NCBI RefSeq assembly: GCF_002443155.1
Contig: NZ_CP023667.1
Location: 62,001-126,000 of the forward strand
Direction of reading: 5' to 3'
DNA: 64,000 bases
Source of the DNA: Alcaligenes faecalis
GTDB lineage: Bacteria; Pseudomonadota; Gammaproteobacteria; Burkholderiales; Burkholderiaceae_B
In this document: piece after piece, positions 25,758 through 32,940 of the stretch
How positions within the stretch are numbered: position 1 is the stretch's first letter
Layout of the letters: each line of letters begins with the position of its first letter
Notes under the pieces: model-generated
What the model was told of the DNA's origin: nothing
Database searches by the model: none
What the model saw: the letters and a program-made list of their open reading frames with translations, nothing else
Position numbers and translations under genes: made by a program

Positions 25758-25910
25758 GGCACAGGTTCCGCTTAAAAAACGCATGCCTTCAAGGATAGGG
25801 GCCAAATCCCGCCATGATTAGCCCCTGCCAGTGCAAAACTGTATTGCTGGGGCGGGCTGGACGAATGTGAGCAATTAGTAACCAAATTAACAAACGTAAT
25901 CTTCCTGAGC

Positions 25911-25926
25911 GCGCTAGCATTAGCGC
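25911..25926. promoter_or_regulatory. Inverted repeat upstream of the lipid operon
   Basis: GCGCTA-gcat-TAGCGC is a perfect 6-base inverted repeat located 22 bases before the first ATG of the 25949-30458 operon, in the divergent region shared with the pirin-like gene. It could be an operator. No known consensus is recognised. Confidence 0.35.
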
Positions 25927-25948: not shown

Positions 25949-26686
25949 ATGGGGCAGGCTTTTCAGGCCTTGAGCGTCTGGCAGGTGATGGGCGTGGGCT
26001 TATTGTTCTTCGGCGGTATTTACGTGCTGTTCGCACTGGGCACCTTGGCGCTGACACATTGGCTGTTTCCTGCCTTGGGTTGGGGACGCCCTCTGGACAC
26101 GCGCCCTTTGCGTCCCGGCCAGTTGCGTCGGGAACTGAAGCAGTCCGCTACGGCCATCCTTATTTTCGGCACAGGCATGATTTTCCCCTGGGGATTCTTG
26201 CAGCTGGGCTGGGCGCATTTGACGCCCGATGCCAGCGCGACCCGTATTGCCCTGGAAATTCTGGCTCTGGTGATCTGGAACGATGTGCACTTCTGGATCA
26301 ATCATCGTCTCTTGCATACTCGCTGGTTGCGCCGCTATCACGGCCCGCACCATTCTTCCGTGGTGGTGACACCGTTTTCCACCTACAGCTTTCACCCGCT
26401 GGAGTCGATCATGCTAGGCAATGTGATCTTGCTGCCCATGGTCGTGCATGACTTCAGTTTCTGGTCGCTCTTGTCCGTGCCTCTGTTCAGCCTGTTTTTC
26501 AACAGCATCGGCCATTCCAATTACGACTTTTTCCCCATGGTCTCCAGCCGCAACTGGCTGGCAGCCAGCCGTCGTCACCAGCGCCATCACGCGCACTACA
26601 ACGGGAATTACGGTTTTCAGTTCAGCTTCATGGATCGCCTGTTTGGCACCCGTTTGCCTGATCGCCCCGAGGAGGCGCGGGGATGA
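25949..26686 (+). CDS. Fatty acid hydroxylase/sterol desaturase family membrane protein
   Basis: A 245-residue membrane diiron enzyme. Four hydrophobic segments carry the His clusters of the family: HFWINHRLLH (HxxxH) near residue 115, HGPHH near 131, a lone His in IGHSNYDFF, and RHQRHHAHYN near 210. Enzymes of this family hydroxylate or desaturate acyl chains or isoprenoids using O2 and an electron donor. It opens a four-gene operon and overlaps the next gene by 4 bases (ATGA). Its substrate is probably a lipid made or modified by the neighbouring desaturase and ketosynthase. Confidence 0.88.
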   Translation: MGQAFQALSVWQVMGVGLLFFGGIYVLFALGTLALTHWLFPALGWGRPLDTRPLRPGQLRRELKQSATAILIFGTGMIFPWGFLQLGWAHLTPDASATRIALEILALVIWNDVHFWINHRLLHTRWLRRYHGPHHSSVVVTPFSTYSFHPLESIMLGNVILLPMVVHDFSFWSLLSVPLFSLFFNSIGHSNYDFFPMVSSRNWLAASRRHQRHHAHYNGNYGFQFSFMDRLFGTRLPDRPEEARG

Positions 26687-27597
26687 GCGCTGCGTGGCGT
26701 TTGCGCCAGCCGCGCGATTGGCAAAGCCTGCTGTACCTGATTGCCTATCCTGTGCTGGTGGTCGCGCTGTGGCGTGGCGGTTTCTCCTGGATTCTGTACG
26801 GCTTGCTGCTGTTCCTGACGCTGGGCATAGGCGTCATCAACCACAACCATCATCACCTGCGCATGTGGCGGGGGCGTCTCCCCAATCGCTTGACGGATTT
26901 CTGGCTGACCATGGTACAAGGCCATCCCGCTTGCGTGTTCTGGCCTGCGCATGGGCGTAATCACCATCGCTATAAACATGGTGAGAAAGACGTGGCCCGC
27001 ACCTACCGTTTCTGGCGGGGTGACACCAACGACACGCTGGGCTGGCTGATGCACCCCTTTGAGGCCGTGCCTGCGCTGTACCCCACGATTTTTGGATGGC
27101 TGGGCAGCTTGCGCCGGCATTGGCCGGGCGTCTGGGCCTATTGCATGGCGCAGTATGGTGTGTGGCTGGCTAGCTGGACGCTGGCCCTGGCGCTGGACCC
27201 GGTGAAAGGTTTCTTGTACGTCATCCTGCCGCAGCTGCACGGTTTGCACTGGCTGCTGACTACGAATTATCTGCAACATGCTCATGCCGACGGCAGTCAT
27301 GAGGGCCGACATGGCGAGCAACTGGCCTATGCCCGCAATTTCGAGGGCCTGGTCAATCCCTTGCTTTTTAATATTGGCCTGCATGTGGCTCACCATGAAC
27401 ATTCTCGCGCGCACTGGTCCGAGCTGACCCGGCTGCACGACACCGAATACCGAGCCCGCACCCCGGACGCCTTGAACGAAGGGGGGCTGGTGCCTTATAT
27501 GCTGCGTGTTTTTGTGCTGGGCCTGTTTGTGCCCCGCTACCGCAGTCAATCCTTGAACGCCGTGGGCCAGACGGAGCGTCGGCGTGATTCCGTGTAA
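26683..27597 (+). CDS. Fatty acid desaturase family membrane protein
   Basis: A 304-residue membrane desaturase. The three His boxes are visible as HNHHHLRMW near residue 49, HGRNHHRYKHGEKD near 88 and HVAHHEHSRAHW near 233, with an extra NYLQHAHADGSHEG. Membrane segments separate the first two boxes from the last. Family members introduce double bonds, or occasionally triple bonds or hydroxyl groups, in acyl chains. The strong GAGGAGG site lies within the end of the previous gene. Co-transcription with the hydroxylase and ketosynthase-HDO genes suggests one lipid-derived product. Confidence 0.87.
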   Translation: MSAAWRLRQPRDWQSLLYLIAYPVLVVALWRGGFSWILYGLLLFLTLGIGVINHNHHHLRMWRGRLPNRLTDFWLTMVQGHPACVFWPAHGRNHHRYKHGEKDVARTYRFWRGDTNDTLGWLMHPFEAVPALYPTIFGWLGSLRRHWPGVWAYCMAQYGVWLASWTLALALDPVKGFLYVILPQLHGLHWLLTTNYLQHAHADGSHEGRHGEQLAYARNFEGLVNPLLFNIGLHVAHHEHSRAHWSELTRLHDTEYRARTPDALNEGGLVPYMLRVFVLGLFVPRYRSQSLNAVGQTERRRDSV

Positions 27598-27611
27598 TCA
27601 GGAGTATTTCT

Positions 27612-29522
27612 ATGCCCGTGGCCTTTGAGCACGTTGTTATCCATCAGGCCCAATGGTTCATGCCCGGTGAGCCGGTCGATAACACCGCCATGGATAACTT
27701 TATTGCCCCCTTGAATCGTATTTCGGGGCGTATCAAGCAGCGCATTCTGGCCGAGAACGGCATTCAGCAGCGCTACTACGCCATTGGTGAAGATGGCAGT
27801 ACGCGCTGGAGCAATACGGCCATGGCCGCCAATGCCATCCGCAGTTGCCTGGAGCAGGCGGGTTTGGACATGGGCGATATCGGTCTGCTGGCCAGCGGCT
27901 CGTCGGGTGGGGATTTGCTGATGCCCGGTTTTGCCAACGCGATTCAGGGTGAACTGGCGGCTCCCCCGCTGGAAGTGCATTCCGTACACGGGATTTGCGC
28001 TGCGGGTGTCACGGCTTTGCAGACGGTGGCCCAAGGTATTGAGCTTGGAGCGCATCGTCATGGCATGGCCGTAGCCAGTGAAATGCCTTCGCGCCTGTTC
28101 CGTCGTTCGCGGTTTGCATCGCAGGATTATCAGGCAGACTTTGATGCGCATTTCTTGCGCTGGATGCTGTCCGATGGCGCGGGTGCGGCCTTGCTCAGCC
28201 ACCAGGATCAGGTGCTGCCCACTACGCAGCCCGGTGTGCGTTTGCGCCTGCGCTGGATTCATCAGAAATCCTTCTCCGGTGACTACCCCGTTTGCATGCA
28301 GCTAGGTGCGGCACGCGATTCCACCCGCAGCCACCTGGATTACGACTCCTGGGCCGACGCCGAGCAGGCCGGTGCCTTGTCCTTGCGCCAGGACATTCGC
28401 CTGCTGCCGCACTTGTTCGACATCGGTATTCACGAGTACGTGAAACTGGTGCGCGATGGCTGGGTCGACCCCGAGCGCATCAGCCACTTCCTGTGCCATT
28501 ACTCGTCCGAAAAATTCATCCCCGTGGTGGCCGATCTGCTGGAACAGGCTGGCCTGGGCATTCCCGCCGAGCGTTGGTACAGCAATCTGCGCTGGCGCGG
28601 CAATACGGGCGCGGCATCCATTCTGATCATGCTGGCCGAGTTCATGCGTGACCGGACCTTGACGCCGGGCGAGCAGGTCCTGTGCTACGTGCCCGAGTCG
28701 GGCCGCTTCATGACGGCCTATATGCTGCTGGAAGTGGAAGCCTGCGATGCACCGGCCCCCGCCGTGTCCTACCCGTCTGCCAAGCAAACGGTCGCTGCGT
28801 CCTCCGATCAGGTGGATATTGCTCCCCCGCATGACCCCGCCACTGCCCCGCAAGGCTTGCGTGATCTGCTGACGCAATTGGCTCCCATCTGGCACGACTA
28901 TCGCTCCCAGGTGTGGCGCACCCCTTTGTTGCGCAGCCTGCACGATGGCTCGATTCGCATACAGGACTATCAAAAGTGGATGGCAGACTGGATTCCCCAA
29001 GTGCGCGAAGGGGCCAAGTGGATGCGCGAAGCCTGCGACTCCCTGTCGCCCGCCTACGCACCGCTGGCCGAGCTGATACGTCTGCACGCGGGCGAAGAAC
29101 AGGACGACTTCAAGATTCTGTTCGAGGATTATCAACATGCAGGTGGCACCGCGACCGAGATCGAGCAACTGAGCCGTAATCCTGGCGGTCAGGCCCTGAA
29201 CTCCTACCTGCATGCTCTGGCGGCCAGCCAGGACCCGATTGGCTTGCTGGGCGCCATTTATATTATCGAAGGCACCGGCCAGCGCATTGTGCCCGCCTTG
29301 CTGCCCCTGTTGAAATCCTCGCTGTCGCTGGAACCGAATATGTACCGTTTCCTGCACTATCACGGCATGAACGACGAGCATCACCTGGCCCGTTGGCTGG
29401 TGGCGGTGGAGCTGGCTCTGGATTGCGACGAAACAGGCCGCGCCGAGCAGATTATTATTGAAACCGCACGCCGTACCGCCGCCCTGTACCTGATGCAGTT
29501 CCAATACGCGAAAGAGTTTTAA
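27612..29522 (+). CDS. Ketosynthase III fused to a heme-oxygenase-like diiron (HDO) domain
   Basis: A 636-residue fusion. Residues 1-378 are a thiolase-fold ketosynthase III with the full triad: Cys129 in VHGICAAGV, His296 in FLCHYSSEKF and Asn331 in WRGNTGAAS. A Pro/Ala-rich linker (about 379-412) leads to an all-helical TenA/PqqC/HDO-type domain. There His584-x3-Asp588-x2-His591 and Glu553, with Glu487 and His492 earlier, reproduce the six-ligand spacing of diiron or manganese-iron HDO enzymes such as CADD, UndA and SznF. The first domain could condense or load an acyl group and the second oxidise or cleave it. Some StlD/DarB-type ketosynthases have a similar length, so a dialkylresorcinol-like condensation is an alternative. 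Strong AGGAG site. Third gene of four. Confidence 0.83.
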   Translation: MPVAFEHVVIHQAQWFMPGEPVDNTAMDNFIAPLNRISGRIKQRILAENGIQQRYYAIGEDGSTRWSNTAMAANAIRSCLEQAGLDMGDIGLLASGSSGGDLLMPGFANAIQGELAAPPLEVHSVHGICAAGVTALQTVAQGIELGAHRHGMAVASEMPSRLFRRSRFASQDYQADFDAHFLRWMLSDGAGAALLSHQDQVLPTTQPGVRLRLRWIHQKSFSGDYPVCMQLGAARDSTRSHLDYDSWADAEQAGALSLRQDIRLLPHLFDIGIHEYVKLVRDGWVDPERISHFLCHYSSEKFIPVVADLLEQAGLGIPAERWYSNLRWRGNTGAASILIMLAEFMRDRTLTPGEQVLCYVPESGRFMTAYMLLEVEACDAPAPAVSYPSAKQTVAASSDQVDIAPPHDPATAPQGLRDLLTQLAPIWHDYRSQVWRTPLLRSLHDGSIRIQDYQKWMADWIPQVREGAKWMREACDSLSPAYAPLAELIRLHAGEEQDDFKILFEDYQHAGGTATEIEQLSRNPGGQALNSYLHALAASQDPIGLLGAIYIIEGTGQRIVPALLPLLKSSLSLEPNMYRFLHYHGMNDEHHLARWLVAVELALDCDETGRAEQIIIETARRTAALYLMQFQYAKEF

Positions 29523-29525
29523 GTC

Positions 29526-30458
29526 ATGGATCAAATCCCGGATTTTTTAAGCAAGCCGCATGACCCGCAGGACCCCAATCCCTGGCGGGCCCTGTATCTG
29601 GATCGCAGCACGCCTTTGCCTGATGAAGTGAAGCAGGCCTGGCTGGCCGATTCCAGCTCTTCGTCACGCCAGTATTTGCTGCCGTTCTTGCGGCCACTGG
29701 CACGCTTGATGATTGTGCTGATTCAGATTGTTAAAACCTTTTTGCCGCGTAAATGGTCGCACTCGGGCCTGTTGCATCGCATTCTGGTGTGGGGCCTGAA
29801 GCGCTTTGTTTCGCCCCAGGCCAACTGGCTGATTCTGCGTCACTTTCATCTGGGTTCACAGGTGCTGGCTTTTATTGCCGCCAACTCGCCCACCAAGGTG
29901 CCGACCACGCCGCTGACGCCCATGAACATCGACGAATTGCGCGATCACACCTTTGTGAAGCACGATTTGAATCTGTTCAATTTCGTGATCCGGCTCAATC
30001 AAACCTTGCGGGACAATAATCAGGAAATCGGCCCACCGGAGCGGGTGGACTTCTCCATGATTCAGCCCGTGCCCCTGGCGCTGGACGATATGCCGCAAGG
30101 CCTGCTGAACAAGATGGACCTGCAAAGCGCCATTGAACTGTTCACGCCCTTGTACCAGCTGCTGCTGACCGATAACGACTTCTGGCGTGCAGCCAATTCC
30201 TTGCAGCTGGACGAGACGATCGGGATTTACGCCGCCAAGATTTTGCAGGCGCCCGAGCATCTGATTCTGGTGAACAATGGCCACCCTCTGGTGCCCATGT
30301 CGACCTTGCGAGCAGGCTACCGACTGGTGCTGCACGGCTTGTCGACAGAGATGCTGCATAGCCTGCTGAATCAGATGAAGCAGGCGCAAGCGCAGCAGGA
30401 TAGCGGGCAAGCGCCAGACCTGGCGCAAGACAATAGCGCAGCGTCGCCTGAAGTGTGA
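29526..30458 (+). CDS. Protein of unknown function, last gene of the lipid operon
   Basis: A 310-residue protein I do not recognise. It starts 3 bases after the ketosynthase-HDO stop. A basic amphipathic or membrane-associated stretch is seen at about residues 50-125 (FLRPLARLMIVLIQIVKTFL, HRILVWGLKRFV, LILRHFHLGSQVLAF), followed by a soluble helical part and a Gln/Ala/Ser-rich tail. There are no cysteines and no obvious catalytic motif; HFHLGSQ and KHDLNLFN could hold metal or cofactor but this is not established. Its position makes it a likely partner or accessory factor of the ketosynthase fusion. A terminator follows at once. Confidence 0.75.
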   Translation: MDQIPDFLSKPHDPQDPNPWRALYLDRSTPLPDEVKQAWLADSSSSSRQYLLPFLRPLARLMIVLIQIVKTFLPRKWSHSGLLHRILVWGLKRFVSPQANWLILRHFHLGSQVLAFIAANSPTKVPTTPLTPMNIDELRDHTFVKHDLNLFNFVIRLNQTLRDNNQEIGPPERVDFSMIQPVPLALDDMPQGLLNKMDLQSAIELFTPLYQLLLTDNDFWRAANSLQLDETIGIYAAKILQAPEHLILVNNGHPLVPMSTLRAGYRLVLHGLSTEMLHSLLNQMKQAQAQQDSGQAPDLAQDNSAASPEV

Positions 30459-30464
30459 GGTAGA

Positions 30465-30492
30465 AAAAACGGCTCAATAATGAGCCGTTTTT
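30465..30492. terminator. Bidirectional terminator after the lipid operon
   Basis: AAAAACGGCTCA and TGAGCCGTTTTT form a perfect 12-base stem around a 4-base loop (ATAA). It lies 7 bases after the operon's last stop codon and can also stop transcription from the convergent aminotransferase gene. Confidence 0.9.
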
Positions 30493-30552
30493 CTATTGGG
30501 CATACGGCCCACATCCAGTCATGCTGATCGCCTTCTGGCAATTTTGCGAGAC

Positions 30553-31503: not shown

Positions 31504-32067
31504 GTGCTATCTGATATTTATAAAACATATAACTGGACGCTGGCCGAGCTGCATGCTTTCTGCCTGATCTGCGAATGCCAGAACCTGAGCCAGGCGGCGC
31601 TGCGTATCGGGATCAGCCAGTCGGCCATTTCCTTGATGGTGCAGCGGTGGCGACAGGCTTTGGGCGATCCCTTGTTCGTACGAGCGCGCTATGGCGTCGC
31701 GCCCACGCAGATCGCCATTGCGCTGCGCGAAAAGCTGCAACCCTTGCTGGAAGAAGTGGGCATTGCCTTGACGCAAACCCAGGGCTTTAACCCTGCCCAG
31801 TCTACGCGCGTCTTCAAAGTTCACATGACGGATATCGGCCAACTGGTTTTTCTGCCGGGGCTGAACAATTTTGTCGCCAAACACGCGCCGGGTATTCGTC
31901 TGGTCATCAAGAATCTGGGCTGGGAAGCGCTGGAAAGCGGCTTGAGTTCGGGCGAGATTGATCTGGCGATTGGCTCTTTGCCCTGTACGGCGTGGAAATG
32001 GATGCCGAGCGCATCGCTTTCTTCTGCCTTTTGGACGAGTTTTTTTAAACCCGACGGGTCTGTGTAG
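31504..32067 (+). pseudogene. Truncated LysR-family regulator gene
   Basis: Begins GTG at 31504 and encodes a normal LysR helix-turn-helix (ECQNLSQAALRIGISQSAISLMVQRW) and the first half of the ligand domain (FKVHMTDIGQLVFLPGLNNFV, SGEIDLAIGSLP). After residue 160 the frame degrades: a one-base shift restores LYGVEMDAERIAFFCLLDE, then a stop follows. A LysR protein needs about 300 residues; only 187 codons are open and no remaining C-terminal half is seen downstream. DNA binding could survive, but ligand sensing should be lost. Divergent from the aminotransferase gene. Confidence 0.75.
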
Positions 32068-32169: not shown

Positions 32170-32940
32170 TTATGCGCAGACAAACTCCAGTTCACCGATC
32201 CCTTGAATGGCGGCTTGAATCCGGTCGCCGGGAGCGGCATACAGCATGGGCAGGCAAGTGCCAGTAATGATGACCTGACCCTTTTGCAGCCCGCCAAGAT
32301 GGTGACTGCCCTGATTGGCCAGCCAGATCAGCAGCCGTGTCAGCTCGCCCGCTGGATTCTGGTTTGGGCCTTGCAGCAAGGTTTGCTGTCCCACTTGCAG
32401 GCGCGCCCATTCAGGCTGTAGCAATGCCATGTCTTGCGCGGCGATACCTTGTGCTTGATGGACCAGCGCTCCGTGGCTGGCCAGATCGGCCAAGGTGGAT
32501 AGACGGCCAACGGCGTCACGCTGCGCAAAACGCGATTCCACAATCTCTACCGCCACACAAACCTGGCTGATCGCCTGCCAGATTTGCTGCATGGAATAGG
32601 GGGCCTGACCGGGTGGCAAGTCCTGACCCAGAATCAGGCCGATTTCCACTTCCATGCCACGCAAGGACAGGTCCTTACCGGCGGGAGCCTCCGGGCTGGC
32701 GTAACGAAAACGCTGGGGCAGGGGGGCGCAGGTAGGCGGGGCCACGCTATTGGCCGCGCCGACTTTCCAGCCGCCTATGGGGCCCAAGGTTTCCATTTGC
32801 GCAGCCTGAACACGATAGGCCTGATCAAAAGACGCAGGGCGCAGCGATTCGGGCCAGTCCTCGATGGGGCGGTTCTCTTGGCGAGCCTGAAGCAGCCGCT
32901 GTGCGGTTGCCAGGCAGCCGGATTGCAGAGGGGCGTTCAT
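32170..32940 (-). CDS. 2-keto-4-pentenoate hydratase-like protein (FAH superfamily)
   Basis: A 256-residue member of the MhpD/HpcG hydratase group of the fumarylacetoacetate hydrolase superfamily. Visible motifs are GWKVGAAN near residue 57, GMEVEIGLILGQDLPPG with the metal-binding Glu pair, VAVEIVESRF, and the C-terminal GQVIITGTCLPMLYAAPGDRI, matching the family's TG(T/S) loop before the A-x-G-D segment. It adds water to 2-oxo-alkenoates released by ring cleavage. It ends the hydantoinase operon, with a 6-base gap after the racemase gene, so its true substrate is probably an open-chain oxo acid from that pathway. ATG at 32940 chosen; TTG at 32943 is adjacent. Confidence 0.82.
   Translation of the reverse strand: MNAPLQSGCLATAQRLLQARQENRPIEDWPESLRPASFDQAYRVQAAQMETLGPIGGWKVGAANSVAPPTCAPLPQRFRYASPEAPAGKDLSLRGMEVEIGLILGQDLPPGQAPYSMQQIWQAISQVCVAVEIVESRFAQRDAVGRLSTLADLASHGALVHQAQGIAAQDMALLQPEWARLQVGQQTLLQGPNQNPAGELTRLLIWLANQGSHHLGGLQKGQVIITGTCLPMLYAAPGDRIQAAIQGIGELEFVCA

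Follow-up and report, generated by a model that had tools for sequence, protein, structure and literature searches.

Operon organization

The 64-kb stretch of DNA analysed here (hereafter the window; G000:C1:62001-126000, from the single-contig 4.08 Mb genome of an Alcaligenes faecalis strain) harbors an operon of four open reading frames (ORFs) that combines two membrane oxidase-family proteins, a ketosynthase fused to a heme-oxygenase-like iron domain, and a protein of the family DUF6999. It spans positions 25949-30458 (Table 1). Genes 1 and 2 overlap by 4 bases, and the two following gaps measure 14 and 3 bases, as described in the initial annotation, a reading of the same DNA that had proposed a four-gene, one-strand operon closed by a strong terminator. 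Folding confirms the latter: the terminator hairpin reaches -22.9 kcal/mol (51-base piece; z -7.2), and none of 200 shuffles is equally stable. A simple consensus scan does not list it, probably because its T run forms part of the stem.

All four proteins were assigned to families with the Pfam gathering cut-offs. Gene 1 scores 86 bits against FA_hydroxylase (cut-off 31), and its product displays histidine clusters and two hydrophobic stretches. Gene 2 scores 64.1 bits against FA_desaturase (cut-off 29.7) and possesses the histidine boxes HNHHH, HGRNHH, and HVAHH. Gene 3 carries two domains on one chain, the C-terminal domain of ketoacyl synthase III (PF08541, 38.7 bits, cut-off 26.6) and Haem_oxygenas_2 (39.1 bits, cut-off 28.9), the family of the heme-oxygenase-like dimetal oxidases (HDOs). 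Gene 4 is a full-length member of DUF6999, with 443.2 bits (cut-off 27) over profile positions 1-275 of 275. Together with the conservation of the operon (see below), these families support the proposal of an acyl-condensing enzyme with likely O2-activating partners. The stated lack of an acyl carrier protein (ACP) and of a ligase also holds among the four genes.

Table 1. Features of the operon and of its borders, in window positions.
Feature	Position	Strand	Basis
AATTAGTAACCAAATT, form of the TTnGTAA element in the window; possible regulator site	25873-25888	+	upstream comparison
Gene 1, 245-aa membrane protein of the fatty acid hydroxylase family, PF04116; putative optional tailoring enzyme	25949-26686	+	
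Gene 2, 304-aa membrane protein of the fatty acid desaturase family, PF00487; putative optional tailoring enzyme	26683-27597	+	
Gene 3, complete ORF	27612-29522	+	
Gene 3, residues 1-375, StlD/DarB-like ketosynthase domain, Cys129/His296/Asn331	27612-28736	+	
Gene 3, residues 376-403, linker, low model confidence	28737-28820	+	pLDDT
Gene 3, residues 404-636 and stop, heme-oxygenase-like iron domain, PF14518	28821-29522	+	
Predicted iron-domain ligands: Glu496, Asp499, Glu553, His584, Asp588, His591			
Gene 4, DUF6999, PF22523, 310 aa	29526-30458	+	
Intrinsic terminator hairpin of the operon	30459-30497	+	folding energy

The ketosynthase-iron domain fusion

Structural comparison identifies StlD as the nearest solved relative of the gene 3 ketosynthase domain and OleA as the next family; PqsD and AbyA1 are also found among the matches. 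Cys129, His296, and Asn331 are kept in 96/96, 95/96, and 95/96 aligned ketosynthases (95 distinct sequences, L103 being identical to L060), which confirms the intact Cys-His-Asn set noted at the outset; the sole row without His296 and Asn331 is that of L049, in which the gene 3 frame is broken. Matches in sequence and structure narrow the original label of ketosynthase III to an StlD/DarB-like enzyme, and with it the likely chemistry. StlD and DarB, from isopropylstilbene and dialkylresorcinol pathways, join two acyl chains into a ring. They are closest to gene 3 in sequence and fold and share its Cys-His-Asn residues, but gene 3 differs from them by its fusion to an HDO and by scores below the family cut-offs (see below). 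The company of the enzyme also differs: dar/stl clusters hold a DarA-type aromatase and their own DarC-type ACP, both absent from the four genes, in which the partners are DUF6999 and the membrane oxidases.

A linker with a predicted local distance difference test (pLDDT) score below 50 at residues 380-402 leads to the iron domain. There, His492, Glu496, Asp499, Glu553, His584, Asp588, and His591 are invariant in all 96 rows, and the same seven residues are kept in 16/16 members of a further alignment (A3). The domain shares with the HDOs UndA, BesC, SznF, CADD, AetD, and PolF its PF14518 score and the Glu, Glu, and His-x3-Asp-x2-His positions, with a ligand spacing that also fits the numbering of the UndA and CADD ligands. 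It differs from them by Asp499, which occupies the position of a His ligand of the motif, Glu-x2-Asp replacing Glu-x2-His in every row. In the alignment with 3dde, a protein of heme-oxygenase fold (E 0.0034 with the single sequence, 3.6e-12 with a profile), a 3dde His faces Asp499, and the remaining ligand positions (Glu, Glu, His, Asp, His) are retained. According to a review of HDOs (PMC13108848), these enzymes usually bind their metals through three His plus three carboxylates; a minority has three His and four carboxylates, and a mononuclear variant exists. As judged from its residues, the ligand set of the gene 3 domain probably comprises two His and four carboxylates, a set also found in some ferritin-like enzymes, unless His492 participates; this invariant residue could in principle substitute for the replaced His. 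A further difference from HDOs is the covalent link to a ketosynthase in Burkholderiales, and a word search of that review finds none of "ketosynthase", "ketoacyl", "fusion", or "fused".

The DUF6999 protein

The fourth protein, initially called novel, already has a Pfam family, DUF6999, and a search for its relatives yields 3,685 homologues (E ≤0.001). Its model is all-helical with a single hydrophobic stretch (residues 51-69), and His106, His146, Asp147, Asp198, Asp229, His270, and Glu275 are invariant. Foldseek returns no match to this model at E ≤0.001, and DUF6999 is not named in the open-access literature searched, which mostly leaves subscription papers outside. The nearest named loci are those of Alcaligenes sp. 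SORT26, A. pakistanensis, and A. faecalis AU14 (93-95% identity in gene 4). The family is sparse: 9/398 genomes of the phylum, 6/289 of the class of G223, and 2/197 of the order of G368 carry it, with the central genome counted in each case, and Caulobacter vibrioides is the only carrier among 14 control genomes.

Linkage in Burkholderiales

To assess linkage, 200 genomes of the order Burkholderiales were sampled, among them that of the window, with E thresholds set at 1e-3 (DUF6999), 1e-40 (gene 3), and 1e-30 (genes 1 and 2); the four draws, one per gene, look identical by the genome handles listed. Gene 3 matches occur in 14/200 genomes, of which 11 are full length at 56-100% identity. The remaining three cover the ketosynthase part only (35-36% identity), in genomes without DUF6999 that may hold DarB-type enzymes. 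DUF6999 is present in 11/200 genomes, the same 11 as full-length gene 3, and adjoins gene 3 in each of them. The initial annotation had conceded that its proposal would fail if homologues of these genes were usually unlinked; the 11/11 adjacent pairs of genes 3 and 4 show that they are not. All matches to genes 1 and 2 also fall within these 11 genomes: gene 1 in ten, always in the gene run of gene 3, and gene 2 in nine, always adjoining gene 3, the exceptions being G316, which lacks gene 1, and G929 and G953, which lack gene 2. A single stop codon lies within the match to gene 1 in G953, and likewise within those to gene 2 in G923 and in G316; this may reflect decay of tailoring genes or only a match overrunning the gene end.

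A second set consists of the 80 loci, out of 275, most similar in gene 4, a choice biased towards linkage to which the 200-genome counts are less exposed. Ketosynthase, HDO, and DUF6999 are found in 80/80 of these loci, the fused gene 3 is open in 79/80, and all five domains follow each other in order on one strand in 77/80. Gene 1 is present in 78/80 and gene 2 in 78/80; L035 lacks gene 2, L075 gene 1, and L049 both. The latter locus (L049:7996-9968, Verticiella sp.) also shows a gene 3 frame broken within the ketosynthase part, by decay or sequencing error, and genes 1 and 2 were not found in its stretch.

A core triad in alpha- and gammaproteobacteria

Fifteen further loci (L096-L110) were reached also through DUF6999 or gene 3 matches and are therefore likewise biased towards linkage. 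Furthermore, five of the 11 matched genomes above (G082, G170, G196, G316, and G350) are the sources of L098-L102, so that the sets are not independent. Domain positions in the GC-rich loci come from tblastn and from gene calls guided by the GC content of third codon positions. Matches to ketosynthase, HDO, and DUF6999 are contiguous in 15/15 loci (the L103 sequence being that of L060). Six loci are from Burkholderiales and nine are alpha- or gammaproteobacterial, a class assignment deduced from kinship labels, from Sphingomonas names among the closest relatives of the L096 DUF6999, and from a Pseudoalteromonas record. In these nine, the ketosynthase frame stops before the HDO match, yielding two separate genes, and no relative of gene 1 or 2 is detected at E 1e-3 within the stretches (only 5.8 kb long for L104). 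Five of the six Burkholderiales loci possess genes 1 and 2; L101 lacks gene 1, and its gene 2 is diverged and spread over two frames.

The shared unit is thus a triad of ketosynthase, HDO, and DUF6999, the fusion and the membrane oxidases being features of Burkholderiales. Genes 1 and 2 look like tailoring add-ons to this core. The four genes had first been presented as one set; they are not equivalent, since either gene 1 or gene 2 may be absent on its own and neither is detected in the alpha- and gammaproteobacterial loci. Gene 1 belongs to the same broad hydroxylase superfamily as the OlsE-type ornithine lipid hydroxylases, by a weak profile match, but its score lies far below the curated cut-off of that family (24.2 vs 475 bits, NF052566), and a role of this type was dropped.

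Neighboring genes of the triad are diverse. In L096, a sphingomonad-like locus, a divergent TetR gene is found, and a gene combining major facilitator superfamily (MFS), acyltransferase, and adenosine monophosphate (AMP) ligase parts lies 3' of the triad on the same strand. This acyl-ligase was rejected as a core part: among the fetched loci it stands beside the triad in the L096 genome only, with weak (29%) ligase matches elsewhere in L058 and L037. A methyltransferase precedes the triad in L104, and a flavin amine-oxidase-family gene follows it in L105. The HDO gene of L108 was at one point considered broken; this was dropped, the stop at residue 18 of the 235-residue match possibly lying before the true start.

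Directly upstream of the triad, two gammaproteobacterial loci (L110:9436-9993 and L097:10441-11007) encode a 188-residue, His-rich membrane-type protein with 64% identity between the two and the motifs DWCCHR, HEVVAHWD, and WEMHAHSY in L110. It has no Pfam match; it may stand in for gene 1 and is possibly an undescribed membrane metal oxidase. Two Streptomyces plasmids (L111:9682-19258 and L112:9691-19252) harbor a ketosynthase that resembles StlD (39% identity). It is clustered with genes for two ACPs, FabF, FabG, a flavin adenine dinucleotide (FAD)-dependent oxidoreductase, an SCP2 protein, and a cytochrome P450, and no DUF6999 match is found there.

Proposed function

The operon likely serves to build a dedicated small molecule through the condensation of acyl groups. 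The sparse occurrence of DUF6999, in one copy per matched genome listed, suits a specialised metabolite. The complete proposal, a dedicated pathway to an oxidised, lipid-like compound derived from acyl chains, stands at about even odds. The sequences document the gene structure, the families, the linkage, the division into core and accessory parts, and the conserved residues; the four chemical steps that follow are inferred. The StlD/DarB-like ketosynthase would first join two acyl chains drawn from the fatty-acid machinery of the cell, the product being most likely a dialkyl cyclohexane-1,3-dione or its beta-keto precursor. The tethered iron domain would then oxidise this product with O2, by ring aromatisation or hydroxylation, oxidative decarboxylation, or desaturation, and would replace the separate aromatase partner of dar/stl pathways. 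DUF6999 would be an obligatory partner of the oxidation, either as a helical, possibly metal-binding enzyme or as a membrane-associated scaffold. In most Burkholderiales versions, gene 1 would finally hydroxylate and gene 2 desaturate the alkyl chain at the membrane.

Several observations weigh against this proposal. The ketosynthase reaches 313 bits against the 450-bit NCBI cut-off of the StlD/DarB family and 248 bits against the 550-bit cut-off for DarB (profiles NF005293 and NF053539); ring formation is therefore not assured. An StlD-like, ring-forming condensation is given somewhat less than even odds. One alpha-, two gammaproteobacterial, and one Streptomyces relative of the ketosynthase likewise score below both cut-offs. 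The departure of the iron-domain motif from that described for HDOs could mean that metal binding is altered or absent. In the alpha- and gammaproteobacterial loci, the neighbors of the triad vary, several being unrelated to lipids (a chaperonin, a resistance-nodulation-division (RND) pump, SelO, and an M6 peptidase). Finally, no product, substrate, or activity is on record for the operon.

A different outcome of the condensation deserves consideration at this point. OleA follows StlD in the structural comparison, and the ketosynthase might join its chains head to head, after which the HDO would oxidatively decarboxylate the beta-keto acid to a long-chain ketone or alkene that genes 1 and 2 would modify. 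UndA, one of the described HDOs, decarboxylates fatty acids (PMC13108848), which fits this route; the route is nevertheless considered unlikely. The matches to PqsD and AbyA1 also raise the case of a small or aromatic starter, with a diffusible signal or antibiotic as product rather than a lipid. Dialkylresorcinols act as signals, and a patchy spread over 11/200 genomes of the order suits a specialised metabolite of this kind; the two membrane oxidases of fatty-acid type in most Burkholderiales versions point instead to alkyl chains, and the four genes include no ligase for an aromatic starter, which makes such a product rather improbable. A stress-protection module, in which the HDO would consume reactive oxygen or peroxide, in the way suggested for the Acinetobacter protein DtpC, and the lipid enzymes would adjust membranes, is very improbable: DtpC is HDO-like and associated with tolerance of desiccation and with the control of peroxide but is co-transcribed with a catalase, "ketoacyl" and "desaturase" are absent by word search (all from PMC13232832), and the HDO of the present operon adjoins a condensing enzyme with intact catalytic residues.

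The preferred reading, oxidation of a condensed acyl product, has a more specific and speculative form, for which the odds are low: the triad might be an undescribed lipid synthase in which a ring-forming ketosynthase passes its product to an iron domain, tethered in Burkholderiales, that bears a ferritin-like set of two His and four carboxylates on a heme-oxygenase fold, assisted by DUF6999 as a helical metalloenzyme of undescribed fold, and which yields a new class of oxidised membrane lipids or lipid signals in many Proteobacteria. Carriers of the operon or triad include Alcaligenes, Achromobacter, Bordetella, Variovorax, sphingomonad-like bacteria, and a Pseudoalteromonas. Each part falls into a known family; the way in which the parts are combined, the fusion, and the altered ligand motif are undescribed in the open-access literature searched, as far as its accessible text extends, and the searches yielded neither a described product for the operon nor a characterised cluster with this set of genes, in line with the first assessment that no such pathway was known. 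In the fusion, a single polypeptide unites C-C bond formation with an oxidase domain of diiron type. The operon provides a context for DUF6999, a family of thousands of members with no assigned function, and the Asp-for-His exchange would probe how much variation in the metal site the HDO fold tolerates.

Upstream elements and flanking genes

Counting both strands, 39/79 upstream stretches of 140 bases contain the TTnGTAA element, compared with mean counts of 3.2 after mononucleotide shuffling and 0.9 among randomly chosen pieces of the same loci; the figure is uncorrected for the close relatedness of many of the loci. With so many close relatives, this hint at a dedicated regulator is only suggestive. 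A perfect inverted repeat, GCGCTAGCATTAGCGC, lies immediately 5' of gene 1 (25911-25926). It is retained in L002 and L004 and differs by one base in L003; among the 45 upstream stretches listed, those of other genera differ in sequence at this position.

Both flanking genes are on the opposite strand, the upstream one looking like a pirin family protein and the downstream one like a branched-chain aminotransferase, as judged from their sequences. Downstream of the operon (31504-32067, + strand), an ORF of 187 aa only resembles a LysR-type regulator, a label that comes from reading the sequence; no continuation is seen by eye in the three forward frames up to position 32500, and the gene looks truncated or decayed.
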